Below, in pieces: positions 11,605 through 35,722 of a stretch of 64,000 nt of DNA; position 1 is the stretch's first letter; every line of letters starts with the position of its first letter. The stretch covers positions 1-64,000 of the forward strand of contig NZ_VTUX01000008.1 in NCBI RefSeq assembly GCF_008370495.1. Direction: 5' to 3'. The notes under the pieces were generated by a model. The model did not search any database and was not told the origin of the DNA. It saw only the letters and a list, made by a program, of their open reading frames with translations. Both the position numbers and the translations under genes were made by a program. Source of the stretch: Pseudohalioglobus sediminis (GTDB taxonomy: Bacteria > Pseudomonadota > Gammaproteobacteria > Pseudomonadales > Halieaceae).

Positions 11605-11620
11605 TTGACTTCGAATGCAA
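11605..11620. promoter_or_regulatory. Candidate LacI-family operator 1
   Basis: TTGACTTCGAATGCAA, one of seven copies of a palindromic word with central CG. It sits between divergent sdaA and the SnoaL-like gene. On the minus strand TTGCAT is followed 16 bases later by TACTGT, a weak promoter for sdaA. Confidence 0.75.
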
Positions 11621-11694
11621 TAACAGCTTCACGCGGTAGCTGCTAAGCTTCTCCAACCTGCCGCGGCAGCAATAACACAGGCAACAATCTATTC

Positions 11695-12759
11695 ATGGAC
11701 AACCATTACGACAGCGCGCCGGCGGGCACAGATACCGGCTCCATGCGCGGCTTTGATCCCGAGTTTACCGATATCGTCGATTACATACTGCGCATCACCT
11801 ATCGCATCTGGGAAGGCAAGCAAGTGGGCCTGTGTCGCGACTACTACTCCGAGGACTGCCCGGTGTACACGCTGGCCGGCTACACCGAGGGCGCCGAAGC
11901 CGTCACCCAGAACACCATGCGTACGCTGAGCGCTTTCCCGGACAGGACCCTGCACGCCGACAACATCATCTGGGGCGGCAACGACGAGGACGGAATCCAC
12001 TCCTCGCACCTGATCACCACCAATATGACCAACCTCGGCCCCAGCGAGTTCGGCGAGGCCACCGGCGTACAGGCGCAGATCCAGGTGATCGCGCATTGCG
12101 TCTGCAAGGAAAATCGCATCGTCGAGGAATGGCTGGTGCGCGACAACCTGTCGCTGGCGCTGCAGTTGGGCGTCGATCCGCTGGCCTACGCCCGGGAACA
12201 GGCGCGCAAACCGCTGGATGCAAAGGGCACCTTTGCGCGCTGGCTGAACGACGAACACACCAGGGTGTCGACCTCTGGCCGGGAGCGCCAGGACTACCCG
12301 GCGCAGGACGAGCACGAGGCCCGCATCAGCACCGCTCTGCATAATATCTGGAACGCGCGCATGGTGGGTGATTGCCACCTGCTGTACGCAGAGAACGCAC
12401 GCCTGCACGCCTCCGCGCGGGACGACTACGACGGCGTGGACAACATCGTTCGCTTCTATCTGGAGATACTCGGCAGCCTTCCCGACGCCCGCATCAGCGT
12501 TGACTACACCTGCAGTAACGCGATGCTCGAAGGTAACTACATCGCCGCGCGCTGGGTGATTGCCGGTACGCACAGTGGCGCGTCACTCTGGGGGGAGCCA
12601 ACCCACGCTCCCATCGTGATCCTTGGCGAAAGTCACTACCGCCTGGTCGACGGCAAGGTGATGGAGGAGTGGCTGGTGTTCGATGAACTGGCGGTGCTGA
12701 CCCAGGTAGCACGCGCAAGACTGGCTCAATCCGAAAATAAAGAAGGAGACGACAGATGA
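11695..12759 (+). CDS. Two-domain SnoaL/NTF2-like protein A
   Basis: A 354-residue protein of two NTF2-like alpha+beta barrels in tandem, roughly residues 20-165 and 205-345. Each has the pattern of N-terminal helices, a tryptophan-rich strand and an EEWLV strand (IVEEWLVRDNL and KVMEEWLVFDEL). The SnoaL/ester-cyclase family includes polyketide cyclases, isomerases and hydrolases with a buried pocket; no unique catalytic set can be fixed here. There is no signal peptide, so it is probably cytosolic. It is the more distant relative of the three two-domain proteins at 14275, 15287 and 17947. An operator copy lies 75 bases upstream. The following small NTF2-like gene overlaps it (ATGA). Confidence 0.8.
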   Translation: MDNHYDSAPAGTDTGSMRGFDPEFTDIVDYILRITYRIWEGKQVGLCRDYYSEDCPVYTLAGYTEGAEAVTQNTMRTLSAFPDRTLHADNIIWGGNDEDGIHSSHLITTNMTNLGPSEFGEATGVQAQIQVIAHCVCKENRIVEEWLVRDNLSLALQLGVDPLAYAREQARKPLDAKGTFARWLNDEHTRVSTSGRERQDYPAQDEHEARISTALHNIWNARMVGDCHLLYAENARLHASARDDYDGVDNIVRFYLEILGSLPDARISVDYTCSNAMLEGNYIAARWVIAGTHSGASLWGEPTHAPIVILGESHYRLVDGKVMEEWLVFDELAVLTQVARARLAQSENKEGDDR

Positions 12760-13175
12760 CGGCGTTTGCTACAGCAACGGCTTTTTTTCACGCCTGCGAG
12801 GGCCTGCAGGGATGGCAGGGTTGCGCACAATACATCGCCGATGGCGCCGCATTCTCCGCACAGTGCGAGCCGCTGGTGGATATCAGCAGCGTGGCGGATT
12901 ACTGCGAGTGGATGGCCGGCCTCGGCAACGGTCCACTGCCGGGCTGCGGCTATACCCTGCACAGCAGCGCCTGGGATGAAGCCAACCGCACGGCCCTGTT
13001 CTTCGCCACTTTCAATGGCAAGCATACCGGCGAAGGCGGCCCGGTGGCAGCAACCGGCAGCGAAACGCACACGCACTATGTGTACGCCATCACCATGGAC
13101 GCCGACGGCAAAGTCTGCGCCATGACCAAGATCTGGAATGCCCCCTGGGCGCTGAAGGAACTGGGCTGGGCCTGA
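12756..13175 (+). CDS. Single-domain NTF2-like protein
   Basis: A 139-residue protein with one NTF2-like fold. An N-terminal helix (FHACEGLQGWQGCAQYIADG) is followed by strands with THTHYVYAITMD and a final KIWNAPWALKELGW. Its start overlaps the stop of the previous gene in ATGA, and GAAGGAG stands in the proper place inside the upstream gene, so it is translationally coupled. Proteins of this shape serve as small isomerases, cyclases or binding proteins, and the substrate is unknown. It ends two bases before the convergent exported hydrolase gene. Confidence 0.75.
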   Translation: MTAFATATAFFHACEGLQGWQGCAQYIADGAAFSAQCEPLVDISSVADYCEWMAGLGNGPLPGCGYTLHSSAWDEANRTALFFATFNGKHTGEGGPVAATGSETHTHYVYAITMDADGKVCAMTKIWNAPWALKELGWA

Positions 13176-13177
13176 GG

Positions 13178-14176
13178 CTAGCGGAACCGCTCGAACCAGG
13201 CCAGGTCCCTGGCTACGGCGGTGGCAAACTGCTCGCCGGTGAACAGGTGATCGCCACCCGGGTAAACCATCAACTGATAGTCCCTGCCGGCCAGGTACAA
13301 TTGCGCCGCCAGTCGCAGAGACGCGGCTACCGGCGTGGTCGGGTCTTCCGCCGCATGCTGTATCGACAGCGGTACGCGCAGATTTCCCGCGCCGTCGATG
13401 GGGCGCAAAACCTCCCTGTTGCCAATATTCTCCAGCTCAGCGGCCAGCTGGTCCAACGCCGGCTTGGCCCGGGTGCCAGCGTCCTCTCCAGCCGATGCCT
13501 GCAGCGACATCTGCATCAGGTAGTCCAGCCCACCGCCGGCGGTGGTTGACCAGACAGCGCCAGCGCGAACTCGATCACCCAGCGCGAGCAGGGCTCGCAG
13601 CGTGACGCCCGCTCCCATGGAATGTCCGAGCATATACGCGCGACCGAGGTCGATATTCTGCAAGGAGGGTAACGCCAGGAAACAGGCGACAGCGTCCCGC
13701 GTATACCACATGTCGGCAAGCAGCCTGCGCGTAAACGCAGCCCCGGCTGAGATATTGTGGCCGCGGTAGTCGGGCACCACGGTGACATAACCAGCCCTGG
13801 CCAGGGCCTGCACGGTTTCCCGGTAGTAGTCGCCGGGCCTGTCACTCACGCCCTGGGCATTGAACCCGTTACGCGGCGGGTCGGGATGATAGCCGTGGTT
13901 GAATTGCACCACCGGCCAGCCCTGCCCGGGTGGCTCACCCGCTGGCCACAGCACCAGCGCATACTGGCGCAGGTCGTCCACCGAGAAACTGACCACCTCG
14001 CGGCGAATGCCTTCTGTCGGTGTGTTCTCACGCACGTGAGCGAAGGCATAGCCGCCCTTGCCGATCAGTGCCTGTAGATCCGTCGGGTCAACTTTCTCTG
14101 CATTGGCTGTCGCCGGCGACAGCGATGCCGCCAGCATCAGGGCCAGTGAGATCAGCAGGCGATTAGTTGTTTGCAT
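13178..14176 (-). CDS. Exported alpha/beta hydrolase
   Basis: A 332-residue protein with a signal peptide (LLISLALMLAASLSPATANA) and an alpha/beta hydrolase fold. The oxyanion region is VVQFNHGYHPD, the nucleophile elbow GHSMGAG, a candidate acid follows AEDPTTPV, and the catalytic His lies in YPGGDHLFTGE. The architecture is like dienelactone hydrolase or secreted acyl esterases, acting in the periplasm or outside. GGGGAA precedes the ATG. A possible promoter (TTGCAT, 17 bases, GAGCAT, complement of 14253-14225) has its -35 box inside operator 2. Regulation together with the divergent SnoaL gene is inferred. The ester or lactone substrate is unknown. Confidence 0.85.
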   Translation of the reverse strand: MQTTNRLLISLALMLAASLSPATANAEKVDPTDLQALIGKGGYAFAHVRENTPTEGIRREVVSFSVDDLRQYALVLWPAGEPPGQGWPVVQFNHGYHPDPPRNGFNAQGVSDRPGDYYRETVQALARAGYVTVVPDYRGHNISAGAAFTRRLLADMWYTRDAVACFLALPSLQNIDLGRAYMLGHSMGAGVTLRALLALGDRVRAGAVWSTTAGGGLDYLMQMSLQASAGEDAGTRAKPALDQLAAELENIGNREVLRPIDGAGNLRVPLSIQHAAEDPTTPVAASLRLAAQLYLAGRDYQLMVYPGGDHLFTGEQFATAVARDLAWFERFR

Positions 14177-14237: not shown

Positions 14238-14253
14238 TTGACTTCGAATGCAA
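14238..14253. promoter_or_regulatory. Candidate LacI-family operator 2
   Basis: TTGACTTCGAATGCAA, identical to operators 1 and 5. It lies in the divergent region of the exported hydrolase and SnoaL-like protein B. Rightward, GTGACG (14202), 16 bases and TATGCT (14224-14229) would place transcription start at the operator's edge. Leftward, the operator covers the -35 box. Confidence 0.8.
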
Positions 14254-14274: not shown

Positions 14275-15297
14275 ATGGATATACACAGCCAGAATAAAAA
14301 CCGCTACGCGCCGCTGCGCGATGCCCTGTACAACTTTGAGACCGATCACGTCCGCAACACCCTGAACGCGCTGTTTCGCGATGACGCACTGATCCAGTTG
14401 GCGTACCCCTTCGAAACCCTGGCGGGCCCCGGCCAGTTGTTCGACCAGGCCTACGCGCCGCTGCAGCGCGCCATCCCCGACCTGGAACGCCGCGACACCA
14501 TTGTGATGGCCGGGCGCACCGCGCACCAACAGGACTGGGTCGGCTGTTGCGGCTACTACACCGGCAGCTTCCAGCGCCCCTGGCTGGATATTCCCCCTAC
14601 CGGCCACCAGGTGGCCATGCGCTACCACGAATTCTTTCGCTTTGAGGAACAGCGCATTGTTGAAATGCAGGCCCTGTGGGACATACCGGAAGTCATGATG
14701 CAGGCCAACGCCTGGCCCATGAGCCCGAGCCTCGGTCGCGAGTGGCAGGTGCCCTCCCCCGCGCCCCAGAACGGCATCGTGCCCGGCCCCTGGGACGCGC
14801 AGCACTCCGCCGCCAGCCTGCAACTGGTAAGTGACATGTGCGAGGGGCTGGGCAGGTACGCCAGCGGTGGTGTGGAAGCGATGCAACTGGAAAAGTACTG
14901 GCACCCGCGCTGCAGTTGGTACGGACCCTCCGGCATCGGCACCGGCCGCGGCATCAGCGGATTCCGCAACTGGCACCAGATACCCTTCCTCAACGGGCTA
15001 CCGGATCGCGTGGGCGATGCCGCCGCCGGGCACCTGTTTGCCGACGGCGACTTTGTCGGCTTCACCGCCTGGCCGGGTATGCACATGTCAGTGAGCGGCG
15101 ATGGCTGGCTGGGCATCGCCCCTGCCGGACAGCAGATCACCATGCGCAGCCTGGATTTCTGGCGTTGCGAGCAGGGTCTTATACGCGAGAACTGGGTGCT
15201 GGTGGACCTGCTGCACGTCTATCATCAACTCAATGTCGATGTCTTCGCGCGACTGCGCGAATTCAACAAGGCTCGGCCCGGGCTATTCAGGGATTGA
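14275..15297 (+). CDS. Two-domain SnoaL/NTF2-like protein B
   Basis: A 340-residue two-domain SnoaL-like protein. It shares with the copies at 15287 and 17947 a distinctive second-domain block: a YWHP-type start, WYGPSGIGTGRGI, HQ.PFL, a W-rich strand, G.LG..P.G and ENWVLVDLLH. The first domain has QLAYPFETLAGP and RAIPDLERRD. The shared motif suggests a common ligand pocket. The longer open frame from 14248 begins inside operator 2, so ATG at 14275 is chosen; its ribosome binding site is weak. No signal peptide is seen. Its 3' end overlaps the convergent copy at 15287 by 11 bases. Confidence 0.8.
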   Translation: MDIHSQNKNRYAPLRDALYNFETDHVRNTLNALFRDDALIQLAYPFETLAGPGQLFDQAYAPLQRAIPDLERRDTIVMAGRTAHQQDWVGCCGYYTGSFQRPWLDIPPTGHQVAMRYHEFFRFEEQRIVEMQALWDIPEVMMQANAWPMSPSLGREWQVPSPAPQNGIVPGPWDAQHSAASLQLVSDMCEGLGRYASGGVEAMQLEKYWHPRCSWYGPSGIGTGRGISGFRNWHQIPFLNGLPDRVGDAAAGHLFADGDFVGFTAWPGMHMSVSGDGWLGIAPAGQQITMRSLDFWRCEQGLIRENWVLVDLLHVYHQLNVDVFARLREFNKARPGLFRD

Positions 15298-16291
15298 GAA
15301 TCGCGCTGGTGCGCTCCAGCACGTCAAGGCCCTGTTGCTTGAGCCAGTAGGGAATGTCGATGATGACCCAGTTTTCCAGCAGTTTATCGCCTTCCCGGCG
15401 ATAGACGTCTACCACGCGCATATGCGTGCGCTCGCCTCCCGGCAGGCCCATGAAGCCGCCGGTGGGCCGGTGTGACAGATTGGGCCAGCCGAAGAAACAG
15501 GCGAAATCGCCCTCGGCAAAACGGCACACATGGCCGTTATAGACTTTGTCGGTGAGCCCCTCACGAAAAGGGTACTGATGCTGCTGCTGGTAACGCGGGA
15601 TGGTGCAGGTGGCGCCGATACCGGCGGGCCCATACCACACCATGTTTTCGTGCCAGGTGCGTGCGAGGTACTCGGGAGGGCAGTTGTCGTTGCCACTTTT
15701 ATTGAGTGCGTCGAGATCATCGATCATCTGGTTGAGCACAGCCAGGGTCTTCTCGCCCTCCTCCGGCGCCTGCCGGTCGAGCAGAATACCGTCATGGCCC
15801 CGCGGCCCCGGATAGACGAAGGACGCCCCGGTCTGCGGCGGCAGCGGGTTGCATCCCACCTGCTGCATCAGGCCGATGATGTCCAGGAACATGCCCGTCT
15901 GCACGATCTTGCCCCCGGCCACGCAGTTGAACTCGGCGTAGCGCAACATCACCATCTTGCGGGTCGCACGAATACCCAGCCAGTCGGCATCGAACAGGCC
16001 CATGAAGTGCCCCATGCTCATGACCCACTGGTCGCCGGCGATTTCGCTGGTACCGGCGATGAAAATATCCTGCCGCCGCTGCAATGAGTTGAACGCGCGC
16101 AGCAGCGGCTGCCAGAATCCTTCTGCGATGGCCTCCTGCCCGTGTATCTCATCGAAGGGATGGCTACCGAGAAACCGGCAATCGGCACTGGTGTAGCGCG
16201 CGAGCACCGCCGGCAGCGTGTCCGCAGCGGCGGCCTCCAGCGCCTCGAAGTACTCGATCACCAGGGCCTTGTTTTGCTGGTAATCACTCAT
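15287..16291 (-). CDS. Two-domain SnoaL/NTF2-like protein C
   Basis: A 334-residue paralogue of the proteins at 14275 and 17947. Domain one runs to about residue 160. Domain two keeps WYGPAGIGA, the QHQYPF segment, WPNL, GGFMGLPGG and LLENWVIIDIPYW, while the usual RG after GIGT is replaced (GIGATCTI). It is last in a minus-strand run of bicupin, SnoaL, symporter and SnoaL. It starts 18 bases after the symporter stop with GGAG upstream. The function is unknown; an isomerase, cyclase or lactone-handling enzyme is possible from the family. Confidence 0.8.
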   Translation of the reverse strand: MSDYQQNKALVIEYFEALEAAAADTLPAVLARYTSADCRFLGSHPFDEIHGQEAIAEGFWQPLLRAFNSLQRRQDIFIAGTSEIAGDQWVMSMGHFMGLFDADWLGIRATRKMVMLRYAEFNCVAGGKIVQTGMFLDIIGLMQQVGCNPLPPQTGASFVYPGPRGHDGILLDRQAPEEGEKTLAVLNQMIDDLDALNKSGNDNCPPEYLARTWHENMVWYGPAGIGATCTIPRYQQQHQYPFREGLTDKVYNGHVCRFAEGDFACFFGWPNLSHRPTGGFMGLPGGERTHMRVVDVYRREGDKLLENWVIIDIPYWLKQQGLDVLERTSAILNP

Positions 16292-16309: not shown

Positions 16310-17920
16310 TCAACCGATCATCGCATTGAACAGGTACAGGAAAACCACCGTCAAGATGAAAAGGCCCAGCAGGTAGTAGCTGACGCGATCGACCCGACCC
16401 GGGATCAGGTACCAGTTACCCTCCTTTTCCGGTCTGCCCTCGGCGGCAAACTGCGCCTTCTGGCCCACCACCGTGTAGGGCGAGTATTCCTCCTGCCTGC
16501 CGTCCAGCGCCAGGCTCGCCAGCAGCGAGACGCTGATATTGACGGCGCCGCCGATCGCGCAATACCAGGGCCAGGCGATATCGGTGTTGGTCGCCACGTA
16601 CCAGATCACCACAAAACCCACGGCCACACCGATCAACAGCCCGCGCTCGGTCGTATGCTTGGAAAAGAATCCGAGGGCGAACATGCTCAGCTTGGCACCA
16701 ACGAAATAGGAGCCCACCTTGCTCAGCGTCTCCAGCACCGAGCCTTCGCTCTCTGCAAACATCAGCGCAGGAATCACAATCATCACCGCCCAGAACACAG
16801 TGAACAGGCGCGAAACTTTCAGGTAATGCTCACCGGATTCGCCGGGCTTAAAGTATCGCTGGTAGAAATCCACGGTGGAAACCGTGGACATGGAGTTGAA
16901 GGCGGAATCGAGGCTCGACATGCTGGCGGCGAGCACCGCAGCCGCAATCAGGCCCATCAACCCGGGGAGCCCATAATCAGTAGCGAACTGCAGGATGATG
17001 GTGTTGCCGTTCTCAAACTCGCGGCCGCCATAGTAGGAGTAAAACAACACGCCCAGCAAGATAAACAGGAAGTAAATAAAGAAAGCACCAAAGCCCATCA
17101 TCAGGAAAGACTTCTTGGCATCGCCGATATTTTTCGCCGCCAGGGTTCGCTGCACCATCATCTGGTTGGCCCCGTACACGGTGACGTGGAACAGGGTCAT
17201 GGCGATTACGCCGGACCAGACCGTGGTCACCCTGGTCATGTCCACGCTGAAATCCAGCGCATCGGTGCGGCCCTGGGCTTTCAGCTGCGCCAGTGCCTCC
17301 GCCACCGGCACGGGCATCTCGCCCAGCAGGGCGAACAGAATGACGAAGGCCCCGACGAAGAGGATTCCCGCCTGTATCACGTCGGTCCAGATCACCGCGG
17401 CAATACCGCCGAGGGAGGTGTAGATCAGCGCGATCAGGGTCACGATGGCAATACAGTATTCCACCGGCAGGCCGGTAATAAATTCCAGCACCAGCGATGT
17501 GGCGTAGAGCACCGCCGCCGAGGTCAAGCCCTGGGACAGCAGGAACACCCCGGACATGACGCTGCGTGAAGCGGGGCCGAAGCGCTTCTCCTGGTACTCG
17601 TAAATCGAGGCCACCCCGCTGTTGAAAAAGAAAGGCAGGAAAAAGGTCACCACAAAGAAGATGACCAGCGGGTAATTCAGGTGAATGGCAATCACGGATA
17701 GCCCATCGGTATACGACCATGCAGGGCCGCCGAGGAAGGTGAGTGCACTGACGTAGGTGCTGACCACGGAGATACCGATCGCCCACCAGGGGATGCTGCG
17801 ATCACCCAGGAAGAAGTCGTCCGCCGAATGAATTTTCTTACCGAGAAAAAAGCCCAGGCCCAGGTTGGCAATCACGTAGATCACCAGGATAGACCAGTTC
17901 AGCGCACCAAATTCCGCCAT
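16310..17920 (-). CDS. Sodium:solute symporter (SSS family)
   Basis: A 536-residue inner-membrane transporter with about 13 transmembrane helices. SSS hallmarks are the N-terminal FFLGKKIHSADDFFLGDRS, WWAIGISVVSTYVSALTFLG, the GGIAAVIWTDVIQAGIL helix and the SSLDSAFNSMSTV loop typical of sodium-binding helix 8. SSS proteins import sugars, acids, amino acids or inositols with sodium, and the substrate is not deducible. ATG at 17920 is preferred over the GTG at 17926 because AGGTGA has good spacing. It lies inside the operator-controlled minus-strand run, so it probably imports the substrate or a hydrolysis product of this cluster. Confidence 0.93.
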   Translation of the reverse strand: MAEFGALNWSILVIYVIANLGLGFFLGKKIHSADDFFLGDRSIPWWAIGISVVSTYVSALTFLGGPAWSYTDGLSVIAIHLNYPLVIFFVVTFFLPFFFNSGVASIYEYQEKRFGPASRSVMSGVFLLSQGLTSAAVLYATSLVLEFITGLPVEYCIAIVTLIALIYTSLGGIAAVIWTDVIQAGILFVGAFVILFALLGEMPVPVAEALAQLKAQGRTDALDFSVDMTRVTTVWSGVIAMTLFHVTVYGANQMMVQRTLAAKNIGDAKKSFLMMGFGAFFIYFLFILLGVLFYSYYGGREFENGNTIILQFATDYGLPGLMGLIAAAVLAASMSSLDSAFNSMSTVSTVDFYQRYFKPGESGEHYLKVSRLFTVFWAVMIVIPALMFAESEGSVLETLSKVGSYFVGAKLSMFALGFFSKHTTERGLLIGVAVGFVVIWYVATNTDIAWPWYCAIGGAVNISVSLLASLALDGRQEEYSPYTVVGQKAQFAAEGRPEKEGNWYLIPGRVDRVSYYLLGLFILTVVFLYLFNAMIG

Positions 17921-17946
17921 TACCACTCACCTTGTTGTTATTGCTT

Positions 17947-18909
17947 TCACTTTATTTGTGCTTTCATTTCCGCGAATACATCGAGGCCCATTTGCGCGAG
18001 CATATGCGGTATATCGATCGCCACCCAGTTTTCCTTGAGCCGGTTGCCCTGCCGGCGCCAGATATCCATTACCCGCAGTGCCAGGTGCTCGCCGGAAGGC
18101 GGCAGGCCCAACCAGCCGCCACCGGAATGGGTGCCGTGCATATGCGGCCAGCCGCCGGTGGCAACATAGTCGCCGCAGGCCACGGTACAGGCGTGGTGAT
18201 CCACATCACGGTCGGGGAAGCTGCGCAGGAACGGCCCCTGGTGGTGGGCGCGGAAACCGGCAATACCCCGGGTGGTGCCGATGCCGCCAGGCCCATACCA
18301 CATGAAATCCGGGTGCCAGTATGTCTCCAGATCCATGCTTTCCAGATCCCGGCCATCATAGCGGCGCAGGCAATCCAGCATATCCATCACCAGTTGCACC
18401 GAACTGGCGCTGTAGGCCGGGTCAGTATCCTCGCCGCACAGTCCATCCAGCGTGGCCGGAGGCATCACCAGGCCGGGGTGCCCCAGCGCAGGTCGCAATG
18501 GATAAACACCGGCCTGGTGCATGGCATCGAGAAAATCCGGAAACAGGTAACACTGGATGATACGCCCGTTCTCCAGGCGTACCAGTTCAGAGTAGCGCAG
18601 GTACAGCGCCCTGCCCGTGGGCGGGATACCAAACAAGGGCGCCAGAAACGTGCCGCAGAAATATCCGGCCCCGGCAACCCACTGCTCGCCCTGATACTGG
18701 CCCGGAATCTCGATGAAAGGCCTGCGCTCAAGGTCCGGTAGCGCCGCCCGCAAAGGCAGCATGAATTCTGTCAGTACTGCGTCGGGGCCGCTCAGGTCAT
18801 TTACCGGATGGCACACCGACCACGCCACCTGTTCATGCAATGCGCTGCGCGCGGCACCGGCTGCATCAGGCCCCGCGGCAGCGGCGTAGAACTCGGCTAT
18901 CACACTCAT
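17947..18909 (-). CDS. Two-domain SnoaL/NTF2-like protein D
   Basis: A 320-residue paralogue of proteins B and C. Domain one has RAALPDLERRPFIEIPG and IPPTGRALYLRY, aligning with DLERRD and IPPTGHQVAMRY of protein B. Domain two has TYWHPDFMWYGPGGIGT, then RGIAGF, HHQGPFL, WLGLPPSG and LKENWVAIDIPH. ATG at 18909 gives alignment with the other copies but has no ribosome binding site. A strong GGAGGGGGGGG lies about 50 bases upstream with only a GTA near it, so the true N-terminus is uncertain. The 8-G run there could hide a sequencing slip. It follows the bicupin gene and precedes the symporter. Confidence 0.75.
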   Translation of the reverse strand: MSVIAEFYAAAAGPDAAGAARSALHEQVAWSVCHPVNDLSGPDAVLTEFMLPLRAALPDLERRPFIEIPGQYQGEQWVAGAGYFCGTFLAPLFGIPPTGRALYLRYSELVRLENGRIIQCYLFPDFLDAMHQAGVYPLRPALGHPGLVMPPATLDGLCGEDTDPAYSASSVQLVMDMLDCLRRYDGRDLESMDLETYWHPDFMWYGPGGIGTTRGIAGFRAHHQGPFLRSFPDRDVDHHACTVACGDYVATGGWPHMHGTHSGGGWLGLPPSGEHLALRVMDIWRRQGNRLKENWVAIDIPHMLAQMGLDVFAEMKAQIK

Positions 18910-18979
18910 GTACGGATCCGCTATGGTGAACGCGACAGGCGCAGGGTGATCTTTTACCCCCCCCTCCTGACAGACGTGA

Positions 18980-20032
18980 TTAATTGGCTGCGGCCGAGCG
19001 CGTCGGGGCTTCCATCCACACTGCCGCTGCGGGGGCGTCGCCGCCGCGGACCACGTAGGCCACGGTATTACTGGCGCCGGGATTACTGAAGCCATGCATC
19101 AGTTCACGGGGCACGGTAAGCACATCCCCCTGCTGCAACGTCAGCTCACCGCCATCCCAGCTGAACAAGAGTTCTCCGCTGTGCAGGTATACGACTTCTT
19201 CCTCGTGACGGGCATGGAAAGGCAAGCGGGCGGCCGGCTCGAAATCCATGCGGCGAACCTGGAAGCCGTGCGGCCAGGCCATCTTGCCCGCAGGCACGCC
19301 CTCCGCCTGGCTGGCGGGGCCAATCAGCGCGTATTCAGCCACGCCGGGCACGCTATCGGTGAGTGCGGAGCCGGCACGTGAGCACTGTTCCTCCTCGCGA
19401 TAAACACACTCGAGCATTTCTTCAACACTCATCACCCGGTGCGCCTTCACCTGCTGCTCGGTAGTCTTCGGTTTGGGATTGACGCCTGCAGGCACCTGCT
19501 CCCCCCGCGTGGTATCCACCAGGCGGCCATTCTCCAACAGCACCAGGCCATACTCACAGGCCTTGTCAAAGACATCCGGCGCCCAGAGCACGTTGCCCGG
19601 GTCGTCACCACCGAGCACGGCAAACAGGTAGCCGACGTCATCACCCACGTTCTCAAAGCCGCGGAACACGTTCACCGGAATGCTGATACAGTCTCCCGGA
19701 CCCAACACGGCCTCGCCATCCTGGCACTGGTCGCCCCAACGGAAGGCCCAGCGACCGCTGTGTACGATAAAGACTTCCTCGGTTTCATGACTGTGCTGGG
19801 AGTTGGTGCAGCCCGGGGGCTGCCGCGCGCCGCCAATGTTGAAGCCGTGCGGCTCGGTAATGTGCACGTACTGGTCGGGATGCTCCGCCACACCCGGGCC
19901 GATAACGGTGAAATTCTCTTTTTTGTCGCTGCCGGGGGTATAGGTATCGACAAACGCGTTGGTGCAGGGTCGCAACTCCGTATAGCGCACCAGACGCTGC
20001 TGCATCGCTTCGGTAGTCCACTGCTTGGACAT
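18980..20032 (-). CDS. Bicupin protein, dioxygenase-like
   Basis: A 350-residue protein with two cupin barrels. The first metal motif is NSQHSHETEEVFIVHSG with PGDCISIP and later H-rich strands. The second is LPFHARHEEEVVYLHSGE with QGDVLTVPRELMHGFSNPG. The arrangement recalls gentisate 1,2-dioxygenase and other bicupins, but an oxygenase role is not shown and sugar-binding or isomerase roles are possible. ATG at 20032 is chosen because GGAGAGAGG precedes it. It heads a minus-strand run with the SnoaL, symporter and SnoaL genes. Its promoter (TTGATA, 17 bases, TACATT) is overlapped by operator 3. Confidence 0.82.
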   Translation of the reverse strand: MSKQWTTEAMQQRLVRYTELRPCTNAFVDTYTPGSDKKENFTVIGPGVAEHPDQYVHITEPHGFNIGGARQPPGCTNSQHSHETEEVFIVHSGRWAFRWGDQCQDGEAVLGPGDCISIPVNVFRGFENVGDDVGYLFAVLGGDDPGNVLWAPDVFDKACEYGLVLLENGRLVDTTRGEQVPAGVNPKPKTTEQQVKAHRVMSVEEMLECVYREEEQCSRAGSALTDSVPGVAEYALIGPASQAEGVPAGKMAWPHGFQVRRMDFEPAARLPFHARHEEEVVYLHSGELLFSWDGGELTLQQGDVLTVPRELMHGFSNPGASNTVAYVVRGGDAPAAAVWMEAPTRSAAAN

Positions 20033-20103: not shown

Positions 20104-20132
20104 AATGTACTTCGAATGCAAAAATTTATCAA
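20104..20132 (-). promoter_or_regulatory. Promoter of the bicupin-symporter operon
   Basis: On the minus strand TTGATA (20132-20127), a 17-base spacer and TACATT (20109-20104). Operator 3 fills the spacer's 3' part and most of the -10 box. The geometry is the same as at the TonB receptor promoter at 35366-35394. Confidence 0.65.
20106..20121. promoter_or_regulatory. Candidate LacI-family operator 3
   Basis: TGTACTTCGAATGCAA between the divergent bicupin operon and the lactonase-like amidohydrolase. It overlaps the bicupin -10 box and lies 32 bases before the amidohydrolase ATG. Confidence 0.8.
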
Positions 20133-26108: not shown

Positions 26109-26148
26109 GGCTCGCGATCAAGCACCACAACAGGCAAACTCTGGATTA

Positions 26149-28405: not shown

Positions 28406-30277
28406 TCAGTCGTGCCCCAGCGCCGCCACCAGTGGCTGCAAAAACTCCTCGTATCGCTTCCAGGCCGCGACCGCGTCCCGATAAATCGGCTCGCGGACCT
28501 GGCTGGCGCTGGGTGTTTTCACCAGCCCGCCACCGCTATGGAATTCGAGCATCGCCGGCTGGAACTCAAGTTCCAGAAACCCGAGCATACGCTCGCACTG
28601 TGCGCGCAGATCGGCGACGGTGGCTTCGTAATCCACGTCCAGGATGCGCTCCGGGTAGAGTGCGTGCCACGCGTCCATCATCCGGCGGTACTGCTGATAA
28701 TAATCAGCCAGAGACTCGAGACCGTGGGCGTAGGTCTGCTTTTCATCGAAGGGTATGCGGTGAATGGAAAAGCAGTTGTCCACCGGCTCACGGCGGCAGT
28801 GTATGAACTTCGCCTCCGGCAGCGCCCGCGCCATCAGCCCCAGGTACTGAAAATTCAGTGGCGTCTTGTCGACTATCCACGCCGTACCCTGGTCGACCTC
28901 CCGGTGACGGCTGCGATAGTAGCGGCCGATTTCCTCCAGGTGCGCGTCCGTGAGCTCGGCCACGCACTGGGGAAACGGCTGGTTGGTCAGGTGCGATGCC
29001 AGCCGCGCGCAGTCAAAAGCGTAGCTGACCTCGCCGGCACCCATGATGCAGCTATGGGCAGACAACACCTGTTCGGTAAGGGTGGTGCCGGATCGCGGCA
29101 TACCCATGACGAAGGCAATACCTGGCGAAGCCGGCGCGCGCGCCTGCCCGGGAGGGCGAGCCTGCAGTGCACGCGCAGCGGTGATGATGCCGTCGGTGAG
29201 GCTGTGGGTAAATGCCCTGTCGTAAGGACTCGCCTCGGCCTTGATGCGATTACCCTGTGCCAGATAGTGCCAGGCTTTCGCTACCTCATCGCGCTGGTCC
29301 CAGGCCCGGAACAGGGCGAAGGCAAGCAGCTTCCTGTCCTCATCGAGCATGCCATCGGCGCGCCACAGTAGTTCCATCTGTTGCAGCTCCTGTTCCGGCG
29401 TCTGCCTGCCCTTGAGCTGCGCCAGCTGGTAATGCGCACTGGCGTAGTCCGGCGCCAGCTGCAGGCAGCGCTGGAAGCATTCGGCGGCACGGTCGCGGTC
29501 TCCCAGCTGTTCATGCAATACACCCAACGCATGCCAGGCAAACGGATTGCCGGGCTCGCGCTGCAGCACCGTATCAAGAGTCTGCCGCGCTTCGTCGGCG
29601 CGATTCAGGTCCCTGAGCGCATCCGACTTCTCGATCATCACGTCAGTGCGTCCGGGCTCCAGTTCGAGCACGCGCTCAAAGCAGGCCAGCGCGTCCTCGA
29701 AGCGGGCCAGCTTAACGAATACAGATGCGCGCAGGTGATGCGCCGCGACCTGCTCCGGGTCCAACTCCAAGGCCCGGTCCAGGGCTTTCATTGCCTTGCC
29801 GTAATCCTCCATATCGCGCTGCGCGGCGGCCAGGTTGCTCCAGCAGGCGGCGTAGGCCCTGTCCAGGCGCAGTGCGGCTTCGAAACAGGTAATGGCGTCG
29901 CGTGCATTACCACTCTCGCGCAGGGCATTGCCAAGATTGTTCATCATCACCAGGTTTTTGGGGTTCAGCTGCAGGGACTGCTTGAAGTGCGCCACAGCGG
30001 CTTCAAACTGGCCAGCATCCTTGTAGGCCAGGCCCAGGTTGCCGTGCGCCTGCGGGTCATCGGGGTTCTCCGCCAGAGCCTGTGTAATCAACTCGATGGC
30101 CTCCAGCGGCCGGTCAGAATTGATGGCCAGGATGCCCAGCAGGTTCAATGCGTGCACGTTGCGGGGATCGAGCTTTAGTACCTCTCGGTAGCCTGCCTCC
30201 GCCTCGCCATAGCGCCCCTGTTGCTGCAGTTGATAGCCCTGTTCGAGATACCGCATGATTTTCTCAGGTGATGTCAT
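28406..30277 (-). CDS. TPR-repeat sulfotransferase family protein 1
   Basis: A 623-residue protein. About nine tetratricopeptide repeats fill residues 1-330 (for example NLLGILAINSDRPLEAIELI, NLGLAYKDAGQFEAAVAHFK). A sulfotransferase domain follows, with the PAPS 5'-phosphosulfate loop GMPRSGTTLTEQV and a 3'-phosphate motif region FIHCRREPVDNCFSIHR. There is no signal peptide. The acceptor is unknown; TPR segments suggest a protein or peptide partner. Proteins of this type often sit beside TonB receptors, as here. No operator copy is upstream. It follows the first TonB receptor, separated from it by a terminator. Confidence 0.88.
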   Translation of the reverse strand: MTSPEKIMRYLEQGYQLQQQGRYGEAEAGYREVLKLDPRNVHALNLLGILAINSDRPLEAIELITQALAENPDDPQAHGNLGLAYKDAGQFEAAVAHFKQSLQLNPKNLVMMNNLGNALRESGNARDAITCFEAALRLDRAYAACWSNLAAAQRDMEDYGKAMKALDRALELDPEQVAAHHLRASVFVKLARFEDALACFERVLELEPGRTDVMIEKSDALRDLNRADEARQTLDTVLQREPGNPFAWHALGVLHEQLGDRDRAAECFQRCLQLAPDYASAHYQLAQLKGRQTPEQELQQMELLWRADGMLDEDRKLLAFALFRAWDQRDEVAKAWHYLAQGNRIKAEASPYDRAFTHSLTDGIITAARALQARPPGQARAPASPGIAFVMGMPRSGTTLTEQVLSAHSCIMGAGEVSYAFDCARLASHLTNQPFPQCVAELTDAHLEEIGRYYRSRHREVDQGTAWIVDKTPLNFQYLGLMARALPEAKFIHCRREPVDNCFSIHRIPFDEKQTYAHGLESLADYYQQYRRMMDAWHALYPERILDVDYEATVADLRAQCERMLGFLELEFQPAMLEFHSGGGLVKTPSASQVREPIYRDAVAAWKRYEEFLQPLVAALGHD

Positions 30278-30378: not shown

Positions 30379-32820
30379 CTAGAAATTGTAGCCCAGCCTG
30401 ACACCGTAGGTGCGCGGGTCGCCGAAGTCCGCAAACGCGCGCGCTCCTGAAAACACCGTGGTCTCGGTCAGGTATTCCTCGTCGGTGGCATTCTTGACGA
30501 ATGCCTGGGCGGTGATCGCACCGCTTGCCGACATCCAGGTCAGGCGCAGGTCCAGCGTGGTGTAGGCATCCTGCTTGGCGAAGAAGTACTCGACATTCTG
30601 CGTCTTGTAGTCATCCGTGTGATAGATAAAGGCGCCGGGTATCAGCACCCCTGCACCACCCAGGTCCCAGTCGTAACTCACACCGAGGTTCAGCGTGTAA
30701 TCCGGGCTGAAGCGGGGCTTTTTGCCGCTGAGGTCGTAGATACGATCCCCTGCCGGGCCTATCTCGCCGCCTTCGGCGAAGCGACTTTCGCCCTCGGTGA
30801 ATTCGTCGAGTTCGGAATCGTCGAAGTTGGCTCCGGCAGTAATATTCAGGGCCGGGGTGGGCTGCCATACCATCTCCACTTCCAGCCCCCGCGCCGTCAT
30901 GCTGCCGCCGGGAGCTGTCTGGGCAATGATGGTTCCGCCCTGGGGCACGAACACCGTAGTGGACAGGCCATCGAAGTCGTTGTTGAACAGCGCCAGGTTC
31001 AGAGTCATGGTGCCGTCCAGCAGGGTCGACTTCAGGCCCAGTTCAAAGGCCTCGACCTCATTGGGGTCAGAGAGCTCCGTGCTGCCCGCGCGAATCGGGT
31101 TGCCGGCAATGTAGCCGGTGGCTGCCGAGGCGTACAGCATCATGTTATCGCCAATATCGTATTGCGCTGCCAGGCGCCAGTCGGTGTGATCGTCATCGCC
31201 CTTGTTCGCCGAATCGCGGTTCAGCGTAAAGGTTGGCCAGTCGCGCTGGCGGCTCTCCTCGTTCAGGGAACCACTGTAGAAGTTGCGCTCATCCTTGGAA
31301 TAACGCAGGCCCGCAGTCATACGGAAACGATCAGTGAAAGAATACTCAGCCTGGCCGTAGACGGCCTGCGACTTGGTGCCGCCAAAGCTCGCACTGAGCC
31401 AGTGCGCCCAGCGCGGCCGCTGCGGCGTTGCTGAATTGGCGTAACCGTATACGAACTCATACTGGGTATCGTCGGGGTCGGAGTCGTCGTACAGGAAGTA
31501 ACCCAGGGTCCACTGCAGGTCGCCATCGCTGTTTGAGTTCAGGTTGATATCGGCCTGCACAGCATTGGACTCATTGCGTTCACCGGCGGCGATACCGCAG
31601 CGCTGCTGCGTGGTCGCGTCCCAGTACCACCAGGGCCCTTCCGGATTGGAATAGTCCACGCAGAAACCGTCGTACTCACCCACCAACTGGCCGTTGAGGG
31701 TGGGGTTGGCCGACATGTCACTGTCCGTCAGGCGTCGCTCTTCGTAATCGAACACACCCAGATTGGCGCGCAGGTCTGCGAAGCCCAGGTCCCAGTTGAT
31801 CAGTGCACTGAACGAGGTTTCCTCGATATCGCGCTGCGGCCGGAAATCGGAGGAGATTTTGAAAGGATCATCAATGGTGGCAGCAGTGGAATCCTGGGGG
31901 AACACGCCTGTGAACTCCTTGCCGCCACCGAAGCCGTCGGTGACGCCCTGGCGCGGTTGCATCACGCCATTGATACCGTTGGTCTGGCCGGTTTGCGGAT
32001 TCACGGGGATACCCAGCACCTTGTAGGCGTAGTCAGAGTTACCGTTGGCAGTATCTTCCCAGTAGGTTGCCGTCAGGGTGATATCGAAGCGGTCGGTGGG
32101 CGCCCACAACAGCTGGGCACGGGCGTACTGGTTGTCCTCGTCCTTAAGCCCCGCGCTGGAGTTGAACACGTTCTCCACGAACGGGTCCTGGGAGGTGTCG
32201 CTGGCGGTGATGCGCAGCGCGACCGTATCGCCCATGGGGATATTGACGTAGCCCTCGTAGCGCTGGTAGTCGTAATTCCCGGCGGTGACGGCGGCGCCCC
32301 AGGACAACTCCCCCACGTCGGGCTTGTTGGCAATAAGGTTAACCAGGCCACCGAGGGTATTGCGCCCGAACAGCGTGCCCTGGGGGCCGCGCAACACTTC
32401 CACCCGCTGGATATCGATGTAACTTGCCAGCGCCTGGCCAGCGCGCGGGCGATACAGCCCGTCGATATAGATGGGCACAGCGATATCGTTGACCCCGGCA
32501 GCACCGGCGCCGCGCATGATGATCACCGGGTCGTTACCCTTGTTGTTGACCTGCATGCCCGGAACGCTCTTGTCCAGGTCCAGCAGGCTGGTGATCTGCA
32601 GTTCCGTCAATCTGTCGCCGGAGATGGCGGTAACGGCGAGGGGAATATCCTGCACACTGGCGGAGCGCTTGGTGGCAGTCACCACCACCTCTTCCAGGAA
32701 ACCGTCCTCCATCACGGTGGAGCCCGATCCGCCCTGGGCCCACACCGGGGCCGTCGACAGTGCCAGTGACACCCCGATCGACATGGCCGTGCGTTTGGTG
32801 TTCATACCGTGTGTTCTCAT
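30379..32820 (-). CDS. TonB-dependent receptor 1
   Basis: An 813-residue outer-membrane receptor. It has a signal peptide, then EEVVVTATKRSASVQDIPLA (TonB box and plug start), plug landmarks [19 protein letters not shown] and a 22-strand-type barrel ending in the aromatic GVRLGYNF. The family imports large or scarce solutes with TonB energy. The start at 32820 is supported by AGGAG nine bases upstream; ATG at 32805 is the alternative. It is closely related in style to receptor 2, immediately upstream, and separated from it by a terminator. No operator copy was found in front, so its control may differ. Confidence 0.92.
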   Translation of the reverse strand: MRTHGMNTKRTAMSIGVSLALSTAPVWAQGGSGSTVMEDGFLEEVVVTATKRSASVQDIPLAVTAISGDRLTELQITSLLDLDKSVPGMQVNNKGNDPVIIMRGAGAAGVNDIAVPIYIDGLYRPRAGQALASYIDIQRVEVLRGPQGTLFGRNTLGGLVNLIANKPDVGELSWGAAVTAGNYDYQRYEGYVNIPMGDTVALRITASDTSQDPFVENVFNSSAGLKDEDNQYARAQLLWAPTDRFDITLTATYWEDTANGNSDYAYKVLGIPVNPQTGQTNGINGVMQPRQGVTDGFGGGKEFTGVFPQDSTAATIDDPFKISSDFRPQRDIEETSFSALINWDLGFADLRANLGVFDYEERRLTDSDMSANPTLNGQLVGEYDGFCVDYSNPEGPWWYWDATTQQRCGIAAGERNESNAVQADINLNSNSDGDLQWTLGYFLYDDSDPDDTQYEFVYGYANSATPQRPRWAHWLSASFGGTKSQAVYGQAEYSFTDRFRMTAGLRYSKDERNFYSGSLNEESRQRDWPTFTLNRDSANKGDDDHTDWRLAAQYDIGDNMMLYASAATGYIAGNPIRAGSTELSDPNEVEAFELGLKSTLLDGTMTLNLALFNNDFDGLSTTVFVPQGGTIIAQTAPGGSMTARGLEVEMVWQPTPALNITAGANFDDSELDEFTEGESRFAEGGEIGPAGDRIYDLSGKKPRFSPDYTLNLGVSYDWDLGGAGVLIPGAFIYHTDDYKTQNVEYFFAKQDAYTTLDLRLTWMSASGAITAQAFVKNATDEEYLTETTVFSGARAFADFGDPRTYGVRLGYNF

Positions 32821-32971
32821 GCTGTGTTTCTCCTGGTAAAGCTTATATGAGCCTTTTTGAGTAGGTTCCCTGGCGCTCCCAGGAAAAATCTTCGCGGCCG
32901 CCCGCAAATACTTCAGGCCGAGGGTGCGTCCACCCCCGGCCTGTCATTCAGTGGTGTGCTGGTATCGTGGC

Positions 32972-33030: not shown

Positions 33031-35289
33031 CTAGAAATTGTACGACGCGCTCAAACCCCAGATTCGCGGATTGTTCCAGCTGGCCTGGATTGAGGCGATG
33101 TCCGGTGCGTCACCCGGGTTGAAGATCACCGAGCGGGTGAGCACCTCTTCATCGCCGATGTTGAGGACGTAAGCCTGCACTTCTACAGATCCGCTCGCCG
33201 ACAGCCAGACAACCCTTGCGTCTGCCATGACATAGGCGTCCTGCGCGGCCTCGTCCACGTTGATATCAAACGAGTAGTACTCGTCCGAATAGGCCAACTG
33301 CAGTATCGGGGTCAGCAGGCTGCCGCCCGGGAGCTGGATGTCGTAGCTGGTCTGCAGGCTCGCGGTCCACTCCGGCGACAAGGCCGGCGTCCAGCCCTTC
33401 AGGGACAGGTTACCCTCGGGAGTCAGGCGCCCCGAGAACTGGTCCAGGCCGTTAACCCAGGAAATCTCATAGTCCCCGAACTCGGAGTTCATGTAGGCCA
33501 GGGTGGCGTCGACGCGCCAGGAATCACCTGCCAGCCAGTTGAGTTCAAACTCGGCACCCCAGGTGTCAACCTCACCGCCACTTTCCGTGAACTCGGAAAC
33601 CACGTTGTCTTCGCCCAGTATGGCGAAGGACTGTGCCTGCATGTCATCGTAGTCGTTGTAGTACAGGGCCGTGTTGAAAATCAGCGTATTGTCCAGCCAC
33701 GTGCTCTTGTAACCGAGTTCGTAAGCGGTGACTGTCTCCGGGTCATAGGTAAGCGGCACACCCTCGGCGATAAAGTTGATGCCACCGGCACGATACCCCG
33801 TAGAGACCTGCGCATAGGCCATGGAGTCGTCGTCAAGGTCTTGTTCCACACCGAACTTCCACAGGTTGTCGTCCCACTCGCCCTCTTCGCCCGTGCCCGG
33901 TGCCGGTATCGGCGGGAACACCGTCCAGTCCAACTGGTCTTTCTTGGTCTTGGTGTCCTCGGCGTAGCGATAGCCGCCCAGCAGTCGGGTGCTGTCGGTG
34001 AGCGCGTAGTTGACGTTGACGAACAGGCCGGTGGAGTCGCTGGTGTAATCACCAACGCGATCCCAGTGCGGAATTTCGAACTGGCCGTCGGTGCGCTCCA
34101 GCCAGTTCCAGGCACTTTCCATCTCGAAGTAATAGGCTCCCACCAGCCATTCCAGCGGGCCATCGCCATTAGATACCAGTTGTAGTTCGGTAGACCAGGT
34201 CTCCTGGTCAGTACCCCAGCCGGTAAAGCCGTTGTTCTCGGGGTCGCCGCCGTCGCTGTAGTCAGAGTCGTAGTTCTGCTCGCCTTCGAAATCATTGATG
34301 TTGCCGATGAACTTCACCGTGGCGAAGCCGATATCCCAGTTCATGTGCAGGGTGTAGGCGGTACTCTCGAGATCGGCGTTCGAAGGCAGGTCACGCCGCA
34401 CTTCCCAGGGGCCGTTGTCGAAATTATCCGAGGCGTTTTCCGGCGCCCACAGGTGACCCGACTGGTAGTTGCCGTCGATGAAGCCGCCAATCTGCTGATA
34501 GCCCCAGATGGCGTCACCGCTGCTCTCCTGGTCCATGTAGGCGATGCGCAAGGTGGTCTCGAAGTTCTCGGTGGGCGCCCACAGCAGGGTGCCGCGCAGG
34601 TACTTGGAGTCCTTGTCACGCAGGTCATCCCCACCGGGGTACTTGTTTTCGATGTAGCCGTCGTGCTCGTCCATCATCCCGGCGAAGCGCACTGCGAAGT
34701 GCTCACCCAGTGGCAGATTGATAGCGCCTTCCAGCTTGGTGCGGTCGTAGTCTGCGTAGACGCCGGTCAGGTAACCATTGACCGAATCCAGGGTCGGCGC
34801 CTGGGTGTGCACATTGATGGTGCCGCCGAAGGTGTTGCGACCATACAGCGTACCCTGGGGACCGCGCAGGACTTCGATGCGCTCAAGGTCTACGTAGGAA
34901 CCCAGCGCCTGCGTGGTGGTGGGCACGTAGACACCGTCTTCGAAGATACCGATAACCTGCTCTGCCTCGGTACCGACGTTATTGGTGCGCGTACCGCGCA
35001 TCGCCAGGCGAGCCTCATTGCCCGACTGACCCATTTTCATGCCGGGAACCATGTACTCCACGCGCGTCAGGTCTTCGATGCCGCCGCGTTTCAGGTCTTC
35101 TACCGAAAATGCCGTGACTGACACCGACACATCCTGGACGCTGGTCGAACGCTTGGTGGCGGTGACCAGGACCTCTTCAAGTTGACGGCCTTCTTCCTGG
35201 GCGATAGCGCCGACAGGTATACCGAGAGCCAGGGACACGCCCAGAGACAGGGCAGTACGGTGATGAAAAGGGCGCTTAAACATTGGCAT
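33031..35289 (-). CDS. TonB-dependent receptor 2
   Basis: A 752-residue receptor with signal peptide (LSLGVSLALGIPVGAIAQ), TonB-box region LEEVLVTATKRSTSVQDVSV, plug motif [19 protein letters not shown] and terminal WGLSASYNF. The open frame extends to 35466, but the added residues are coded by promoter and operator DNA. ATG at 35289 has AGAGGA in front, with 35283 also possible. It is the receptor most clearly tied to the regulon: TTGACA, 17 bases, TACAAA directs it, and operator 6 lies across the spacer and -10 box. It therefore probably imports the cluster's substrate. Confidence 0.93.
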   Translation of the reverse strand: MPMFKRPFHHRTALSLGVSLALGIPVGAIAQEEGRQLEEVLVTATKRSTSVQDVSVSVTAFSVEDLKRGGIEDLTRVEYMVPGMKMGQSGNEARLAMRGTRTNNVGTEAEQVIGIFEDGVYVPTTTQALGSYVDLERIEVLRGPQGTLYGRNTFGGTINVHTQAPTLDSVNGYLTGVYADYDRTKLEGAINLPLGEHFAVRFAGMMDEHDGYIENKYPGGDDLRDKDSKYLRGTLLWAPTENFETTLRIAYMDQESSGDAIWGYQQIGGFIDGNYQSGHLWAPENASDNFDNGPWEVRRDLPSNADLESTAYTLHMNWDIGFATVKFIGNINDFEGEQNYDSDYSDGGDPENNGFTGWGTDQETWSTELQLVSNGDGPLEWLVGAYYFEMESAWNWLERTDGQFEIPHWDRVGDYTSDSTGLFVNVNYALTDSTRLLGGYRYAEDTKTKKDQLDWTVFPPIPAPGTGEEGEWDDNLWKFGVEQDLDDDSMAYAQVSTGYRAGGINFIAEGVPLTYDPETVTAYELGYKSTWLDNTLIFNTALYYNDYDDMQAQSFAILGEDNVVSEFTESGGEVDTWGAEFELNWLAGDSWRVDATLAYMNSEFGDYEISWVNGLDQFSGRLTPEGNLSLKGWTPALSPEWTASLQTSYDIQLPGGSLLTPILQLAYSDEYYSFDINVDEAAQDAYVMADARVVWLSASGSVEVQAYVLNIGDEEVLTRSVIFNPGDAPDIASIQASWNNPRIWGLSASYNF

Positions 35290-35365
35290 GAAATCCTCTC
35301 TTATGACGTTATTTTTGACTGCAGTCTTATGCTGCATAAACACGTTTGGTGATGCGCTGGGAGTA

Positions 35366-35394
35366 TTTGTACTTCGAATGCAATTTAATGTCAA
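35366..35394 (-). promoter_or_regulatory. Promoter of TonB receptor 2
   Basis: Minus strand: consensus TTGACA (35394-35389), 17-base spacer, TACAAA (35371-35366). It is the best sigma-70-type promoter seen in the cluster, with operator 6 inside it. Confidence 0.75.
35368..35383. promoter_or_regulatory. Candidate LacI-family operator 6
   Basis: TGTACTTCGAATGCAA, identical to operator 3. It covers the spacer and most of the -10 box of the receptor 2 promoter, an arrangement expected for repression. Confidence 0.85.
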
Positions 35395-35706
35395 ATCTTT
35401 GCCACCATGGCGCCGTCTGTTGTTGCGCACGCCATACGAACGCCATGAGACGAGCCAATAAACCATACTTTTCCTATTATTTTCAGTATGTTAAAGCAGG
35501 TAGAACGAATGATGACAGAGCCATTTCCAGCCCTGAGCAAGAGGGAAAAAGTCATTTCCCACAGGCGGCAATGCAGTTTTTTCCATAAATCAGATGCAGG
35601 CACAACGGTCGTCCTGGCAGTCTCTGAGGGCTGCAGAAACGGCAGCGCAGGCGTTACAGGGCCACGCATCGGCAACAGGTGCTGCAGTCAAATAGCGTTA
35701 GCGTTC
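35395..35706. other. Non-coding stretch between receptor 2 and TPR-sulfotransferase 2
   Basis: About 310 bases without a convincing gene on either strand. Short frames here lack ribosome binding sites and recognisable domains. It is richer in A+T near 35470-35560. No hairpin terminator was seen. It could carry the upstream part of the sulfotransferase promoter. Confidence 0.4.
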
Positions 35707-35722
35707 TTGCATTCGAAGCCAA
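35707..35722. promoter_or_regulatory. Candidate LacI-family operator 7
   Basis: TTGCATTCGAAGCCAA, the only copy in the opposite orientation on the top strand, with one change from the reverse of operators 1, 2 and 5. It ends 19 bases before the ATG of TPR-sulfotransferase 2. TTGCAT, 17 bases and TCAAAT would make a promoter with an almost leaderless transcript. Confidence 0.72.

Follow-up and report, generated by a model that had tools for sequence, protein, structure and literature searches.

Does a short palindrome that occurs seven times around a gene for a LacI-family regulator mark a local regulon and, if so, what does that regulon control? The question is raised by a 64,000-nucleotide stretch of the Pseudohalioglobus sediminis genome (contig NZ_VTUX01000008.1, positions 1 to 64,000), hereafter the window. 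We find that the seven words are very probably operators of the LacI protein encoded at 23721-24761 on the minus strand, which would repress a catabolic island, its own operon included, and release it when a pathway compound is present. Together, the operators look like a device tying about 20 neighbouring genes into one switchable catabolic set. The kind of system is known, a LacI regulon; what is new is the conserved, uncharacterised pathway that it controls, and a literature search found no description of this gene cluster.

The original prediction placed seven palindromes within 24 kb, and all of them are present. They begin at 11605, 14238, 20106, 23686, 26078, 35368 and 35707, with 0, 0, 2, 3, 0, 2 and 1 mismatches to TTGCATTCGAAGTCAA, respectively. 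In 100 dinucleotide shuffles the mean was 0.40 matches and the highest count 2, so that none reached seven. Across the whole genome (4,431,436 bases), a search at up to three mismatches returns 24 strand-hits versus 18 for a reversed control pattern. All six matches with at most two mismatches fall inside the window cluster; the 18 three-mismatch matches comprise the site at 23686 and 17 elsewhere, a number comparable with the reversed control. The shuffle and whole-genome counts thus show that the cluster is real and that the remaining genome is background. This agrees with the earlier remark that none was found outside the span, and the genome-wide motif scan proposed at that time finds no equally good copies elsewhere.

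All seven sites are found ahead of a gene start or across one, again as predicted. The first six words read on the minus strand and the seventh on the plus strand. Operator 1 (11605-11620) lies between sdaA (minus) and snoA (plus), operator 2 (14238-14253) between abhB (minus) and snoB (plus), and operator 3 (20106-20121) between the bicupin operon (minus) and an amidohydrolase gene (plus). Operator 4 (23686-23701), internal to the hisD-like/lacI/abhS/metE-like/hpaI operon, overlies the opening codons of abhS, and five related loci (L029-L033) likewise have a site at the abhS start or close to it. Operator 5 (26078-26093), between the hisD-like/lacI operon (minus) and abhL-sdr (plus), is the probable autoregulatory site of the lacI operon. 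Operator 6 (35368-35383) lies upstream of the TonB receptor operon (minus) and operator 7 (35707-35722) upstream of a TPR-sulfotransferase gene (plus). We count ten promoter arms and one internal site, so the proposed figure of at least nine transcription units is reasonable, although the count takes in both arms of divergent pairs and does not distinguish which arm is regulated. Open frames do run through the copies: mechanically called frames reach or contain six of the seven sites (frames 14248, 20096, 22999, 26065, 33031 and 35679). For five of these six frames, the true start is judged from sequence to lie downstream of the operator. A promoter scan was uninformative (3 sites versus 4.4 expected), and one weak promoter match (20132-20104, minus strand) overlaps operator 3.

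The regulator itself is a typical family member. It matches PF00356, the helix-turn-helix (HTH) domain, at 53.8 bits (cut-off 27) and PF13377, a periplasmic-binding-protein-like domain, at 86.8 bits (cut-off 26.5); NCBIfam models match it only below their cut-offs. Known local catabolic regulons of this family (LacI, GntR, sucrose and fructose regulators) share its HTH plus sugar-binding-like domain, palindromic operators with a central CG, a regulator gene within its own locus and several promoters per island. However, the operator word and target set described here match no regulon that a literature search brought up. A contig scan for LacI gave 12 loci (genomes are numbered with G and loci with L), comprising 11 orthologous loci (59-84% identity) and one outgroup (L040, 30%). 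Orthologues occur in other Halieaceae, HTCC2148, Microbulbifer, Lysobacterales and metagenome-assembled genomes (MAGs) of Alphaproteobacteria. The nearest named relative, HTCC2148 (LacI 84% identical), belongs to Halieaceae by NCBI taxonomy and is genome G028. The full-length relatives compared (36-84% identical to the query; L062 and the truncated L028 left aside) share the recognition-helix stretch VSQSAVSR, except the outgroup L040, which reads VSVATVSR. In a Cellvibrionales MAG, a second LacI-family gene (L031:13683-14708), 39% identical and with the same VSQSAVSR, lies near the first and may share its operators.

The operator word is conserved together with this regulator. At up to three mismatches to the window words, sites are present in 10 of the 11 orthologous LacI loci, and none was found at this threshold in the L040 outgroup. 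A larger set of 18 loci (353 kb) contains 85 sites with at most two mismatches to six words, against 0.4 expected from five shuffles per locus. In this set, HTCC2148 provides two loci that share one site, and two pairs of loci, L037/L039 and L079/L082, are closely similar. It was compiled without L034 (5 kb), L083 (no LacI or site), L086 (7 kb), the plasmid loci, L024-L028 (short or from the same genomes) and L074-L077 (further stretches or copies of the L029-L031 assemblies). Most of the sites (76 of 85) sit between 250 bp before and 90 bp after a homologous open reading frame (ORF) start. An operator accompanies 15 of 16 bicupin starts, 11 of 15 hisD-like, 9 of 15 abhS, 9 of 16 sdr, 5 of 6 tonB1 and 2 of 2 sdaA starts, while snoB starts are not properly covered for L029-L039. 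No site accompanies hpaI (0 of 16) or metE-like (0 of 10) starts, as expected because both genes lie within operons. Control loci totalling about 66 kb (L040 and the places in the P. sediminis genome with three-mismatch matches; L020 excluded) contain no site.

Across genomes, the word also follows the regulator. A LacI protein search (E<=1e-50) found the regulator in 6 of 140 family genomes, the P. sediminis genome included, all at 70% identity or more; 62 of these 140 genomes fall short of 90% completeness or more combined with 5% contamination or less. Three of the 140 (G000, G028 and G054), all LacI carriers, contain the exact word TKKACTTCGAATGCAA, as do none of the 134 where LacI was not found; the reversed control occurs in none. 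At order level, 10 of 286 genomes contain the exact word, with 32 matches, versus six single matches of the reversed control in six other genomes. Nine of the 10 belong to the 20 genomes with a bicupin match. The conservation upstream of orthologous genes that had been proposed as a check is thus evident, and the kept words and recognition helix support the claim that the local LacI controls the sites.

Several observations weigh against this interpretation. Nine of the 85 sites have no adjoining recognised homologous start. Half of the six family carriers (G037, G039 and G041) lack the exact word: G037 carries one-mismatch variants, the LacI match of G039 begins at a contig end, and G041 has no site at up to two mismatches within the 7.4 kb contig read. 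The exact word is absent from 11 of the 20 order genomes with a bicupin match and present in G244, for which no bicupin match is listed. One locus, L034, matches only the symmetrical word, and with two mismatches, L066 has two-mismatch or weaker sites only, and L063 has none that is clear. Locus L083 (G233) retains a large part of the genes, but its 19.9 kb contain neither LacI nor a site with two or fewer mismatches. Finally, the Hyphomicrobiales and Roseobacter clusters have a differing, TTGCATACGTATGCAA-like operator centre.

These last clusters belong to distant versions of the system. A recurrent plasmid core, with other transporters, comprises LacI, HisD-like, SDR, bicupin, hydrolase and an RraA or HpaI aldolase, with SnoaL in most. 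It was found in Marinovum, Ruegeria, Octadecabacter, Martelella, Labrenzia, Paracoccus and Novosphingobium, with a minimal version in Klebsiella. As annotated, the Marinovum cluster lacks the SDR gene, Ruegeria SCSIO 43209 the aldolase and Klebsiella SnoaL. The Novosphingobium EMRT-2 cluster has a perfect palindrome, TTGCATTCGAATGCAA, in three copies. Sinorhizobium L070, whose gene content was read by blastp of ORFs (the PLSDB entry has no annotation), carries TTGCATACGTATGCAA-like words, and Marinovum, Martelella and Octadecabacter carry weaker relatives of them. The outer half-sites look kept while the centre drifts among distant versions, and the regulon, as judged by its genes and words, extends across bacterial classes.

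Could LacI instead be a bystander, with the words serving a different regulator or forming a mobile repeat? We consider this very improbable. Given the identical helix of the second LacI in L031, a related protein could act at these sites too. Against this, word and LacI gene co-occur across genomes, and the sites are single, palindromic and at gene starts. A mobile repeat is rejected, the flanks being unrelated at all seven sites.

With LacI as the regulator, binding, repression and induction are inferred from site positions, genome-wide specificity and conservation with the lacI gene. LacI would bind TTG..TTCGAA..CAA palindromes and repress one catabolic island, including its own operon through the site at 26078, and would leave the DNA once the pathway compound is present. 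The internal abhS site, 2.4 kb from the site at 26078, may aid DNA looping. The island would import and degrade one small compound: TonB receptors would carry it across the outer membrane, exported hydrolases would trim it and the sodium symporter would bring it into the cell. There, the carbon skeleton would be taken apart by dehydrogenases, SnoaL proteins, the bicupin, a hydrolase and the HpaI aldolase; a methyl group would be transferred by the MetE-like enzyme and any released serine processed by L-serine dehydratase. The roles and the order of these steps are likewise inferred.

The families themselves were assigned by Pfam and NCBIfam, with 20 window proteins scanned. The left part of the island contains sdaA, an L-serine ammonia-lyase (TIGR00720; 10135-11535, minus), the single copy found in the P. 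sediminis genome, followed by snoA, a two-domain SnoaL-like protein (11695-12759, plus), and a small ORF (12756-13175, plus) that is 80% identical in HTCC2148. Next come abhB (13178-14176, minus), an alpha/beta hydrolase that is probably exported, having a signal-like N-terminus by eye, and snoB (14275-15297, plus; start judged), another two-domain SnoaL-like protein. These are followed by snoC (SnoaL-like; 15287-16291, minus), a sodium:solute symporter of the SSS family (16310-17926, minus), the two-domain SnoaL-like snoD (17947-19095, minus; its mechanical start overlaps the bicupin gene) and the bicupin (18980-20032, minus; start judged). The amidohydrolase (Amidohydro_2; 20153-21043, plus; start judged) has 4dlf as its nearest solved structure. 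The lacI operon encodes the HpcH/HpaI aldolase (21073-21831, minus; start judged), the MetE-like protein (21836-22981, minus), the alpha/beta hydrolase abhS (22999-23709, minus), the regulator and a HisD/HpsN-like dehydrogenase (24742-26025, minus). To the right lie abhL (26107-27558, plus), a large hydrolase, probably exported, whose start and hydrolase reading are judged and which has no Pfam or NCBIfam match, and an SDR dehydrogenase (27580-28329, plus). Two TonB-dependent receptors (30379-32907 and 33031-35289, both minus; start of the latter judged) stand between two TPR-sulfotransferases (28406-30277, minus; 35742-37466, plus; start of the latter judged). The TonB receptor, symporter, hydrolases, dehydrogenases and aldolase named in the original prediction were correctly recognised; the SnoaL proteins, bicupin, MetE-like protein and serine dehydratase went unnamed.

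Which compound might these enzymes degrade? The best solved-structure match of the HisD-like enzyme is HpsN, the R-2,3-dihydroxypropane-1-sulfonate (DHPS) 3-dehydrogenase (E 5.5e-121 over 421 residues). A study of HpsN gives the HpsN motif as G-R-Y-A/S-H, with a sulfonate-binding His, and its HisD counterpart as G-S-A-P-L (PMC11382572). The GDK stretch is kept in the island enzyme. Among 11 aligned HisD-like rows, in which L024 and L029 are the same gene, the motif position reads GKYPL in 10 and GRYPM in one. The sulfonate His is present in none, and by its sequence the enzyme is therefore not a canonical DHPS enzyme. Sulfonate (DHPS) catabolism is rejected on the missing His in all 11 rows and on the absence of any sulfite-lyase family among the window proteins scanned. 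The enzyme belongs to the same family as HisD, scoring above the TIGR00069 cut-off, and its motif ends in PL as in HisD, but it is closer to HpsN in sequence. Another HisD-family gene, at C17 in the same genome, scores 530 bits versus 473 for the island copy. The island copy may thus be free for another role and seems unlikely to be the histidine-pathway enzyme. As a side observation, Novosphingobium EMRT-2 has two HisD-like genes in one cluster (L062:16154-17509 and 24230-25558), 46% and 71% identical to that of the window, and Martelella L071 likewise has two; such pairs suggest two distinct oxidation steps.

HxC, E and C are the zinc ligands of cobalamin-independent methyltransferases, and the MetE-like protein keeps them in 10 of 10 rows. 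The HpaI protein aligns full-length with 2-dehydro-3-deoxygalactarate aldolase, its nearest solved relative, and keeps the EHAP, VRVP, QIE and DL stretches. In the bicupin, the HxH..E motif (HSH..E) is kept only in the N-terminal cupin, in all 27 rows aligned. Its structural model (pLDDT 80.2, pTM 0.82) finds oxalate decarboxylases, quercetinase and seed globulins in Foldseek; as the matches mostly have TM 0.4-0.5, the fold does not identify the reaction.

A branched sugar acid, or a C4-C6 acid sugar giving a tetronate, is a possible though still tentative substrate of the same regulon. It fits the LacI regulator and the CUT1 transporters seen in relatives, and the nearest solved structures to two enzymes, 2-dehydro-3-deoxygalactarate aldolase for HpaI and, for the amidohydrolase, 4dlf, which we take to be a structure with lactonase activity. 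Four-carbon acid sugar (otn) genes also join distant versions of the cluster: otnK, otnI and an aldolase lie beside the bicupin gene in Vibrio pelagius, and otnK and an aldolase in Ensifer NER9. However, bicupin identity to these versions is only 30-35%, no otn genes are among the window proteins scanned, and the methyltransferases, glycine transporter and serine dehydratase are left unexplained.

These extra genes hint at another chemistry. L-serine dehydratase, a glycine transporter and a corrinoid demethylase, operator-linked in some relatives, would suit a substrate that carries methyl groups and yields glycine and serine. In the window, HTCC2148 (L073) and L080, sdaA stands behind an operator that it shares with a SnoaL gene running the other way, so the site could serve the SnoaL gene instead. 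Of 10 genomes with the cluster that were searched, five (G000, G028, G041, G054 and G148) have sdaA on the regulon contig and five have it elsewhere. The glycine transporter gene follows sdaA in L073, behind the operator, and in L086; it directly follows an operator in L078, and L094 has a site some 500 bp ahead of snoB, with the transporter gene after snoB. The transporter family is present in 11 of 12 genomes searched and on the regulon contig in five (G028, G163, G185, G233 and G385), though with no upstream site seen in G163 and G233; the P. sediminis copy is on another contig. In L038 (4201-7206), genes for a corrinoid protein, a URO-D methyltransferase and a pterin-binding protein lie beside two weak sites (two mismatches each) and apparently form a corrinoid demethylase linked to the regulon.

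One class of compounds with these groups is the mycosporine-like amino acids (shinorine, mycosporine-glycine), which are algal sunscreens. The mycosporine ring bears an enol methoxy group, a tertiary alcohol with CH2OH, and glycine, with serine too in shinorine. MetE-like and corrinoid enzymes would pass the methyl group to a one-carbon (C1) carrier, and the HisD-like enzyme would oxidise the CH2OH group. The cupin and a hydrolase would open the cyclohexenone core to a citrate-like tertiary-alcohol oxo-acid, which the HpaI or RraA aldolase would split into pyruvate and oxaloacetate-type products; serine would go to sdaA and glycine to the glycine transporter. The operator-linked sdaA (window, L073 and L080) and glycine transporter (L073, L078 and L094) fit this scheme, as do the spread of the transporter family, its place behind sdaA in L086, the corrinoid, URO-D and pterin-binding genes of L038 and the RraA aldolase at HpaI's place in Roseobacter and Martelella versions. 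The likeness of the HisD-like enzyme to HpsN also fits, HpsN being described as oxidising a CH2OH adjoining a carbinol (PMC11382572).

Nevertheless, we consider mycosporines a rather doubtful substrate, because the sequence read of several close relatives lacks the MetE-like gene, tetronate genes occur in distant versions (Vibrio and Ensifer NER9) and MetE-like relatives are also found in methoxyaromatic or C1 clusters. The stretches without a MetE-like gene are those read of L032, L033, L079, L080, L082, L083 and L085, together with those of Martelella, Novosphingobium EMRT-2 and Klebsiella. Further points against are that C-N cleavage has no assigned enzyme, that sdaA is off the regulon contig in half of the 10 genomes searched and has no site at up to two mismatches in L093, and that its site in the window, L073 and L080 is common to the SnoaL gene. 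In L077 and L083, no site precedes the glycine transporter gene, its P. sediminis copy lies on another contig, and a literature search found no link of such genes to mycosporine-like compounds.

A methoxylated aromatic or lignin-like dimer appears improbable as the substrate of this regulon. MetE-like relatives (49-51%) adjoin tetrahydrofolate C1 genes in Croceicoccus and Sphingobium RAC03, with ligA and ligK also in Croceicoccus, and GMC oxidoreductases occur in L035, L036 and L038. SnoaL-type lyases act in lignin-dimer pathways, and the RraA-family CHA/HMG aldolase acts in gallate/protocatechuate 4,5-cleavage; an RraA-like aldolase replaces HpaI in the Roseobacter and Martelella versions. 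However, the annotated genes of those stretches include no ligAB-type dioxygenase, the window proteins scanned include no extradiol, intradiol or Rieske dioxygenase, and LacI control with CUT1 sugar-type ABC transporters in relatives points to a polyol-like compound. Demethylation of glycine betaine or sarcosine was also considered and set aside, as it leaves the aldolase, HisD-like, SnoaL and amidohydrolase genes unexplained.

Whichever substrate applies, the LacI regulon provides a firm set of genes, with their operator and regulator, for a catabolic route of which we found no description; relatives of its core occur in marine gammaproteobacteria, Alphaproteobacteria MAGs, Roseobacter, sphingomonads and rhizobia. 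Having already pointed to sdaA and the glycine transporter, the operator can serve to trace more genes of the pathway elsewhere. Were the substrate a mycosporine, marine bacteria and, with other transporters, their soil relatives would have a dedicated LacI-controlled route for it. Degradation of such algal or coral sunscreens would show how a chemically stubborn marine pool of carbon and nitrogen returns to the food web.

Three neighbourhoods of the cluster are also of note. On Marinovum plasmid pMaD9 (L061:19296-22929), an SBP56 gene and a gene for the dimethylsulfoniopropionate demethylase DmdA directly follow the pathway version. A DNA photolyase gene set lies near the cluster in G180 (L079:14708-17795), and frames in G216 (L082) match it in size and order, which is possibly a coincidence. 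The two TPR-sulfotransferase genes of the window (28406-30277 and 35742-37466) adjoin TonB receptor genes, a pairing also seen in L032, L038, L077, L078, L080, L093 and L094.

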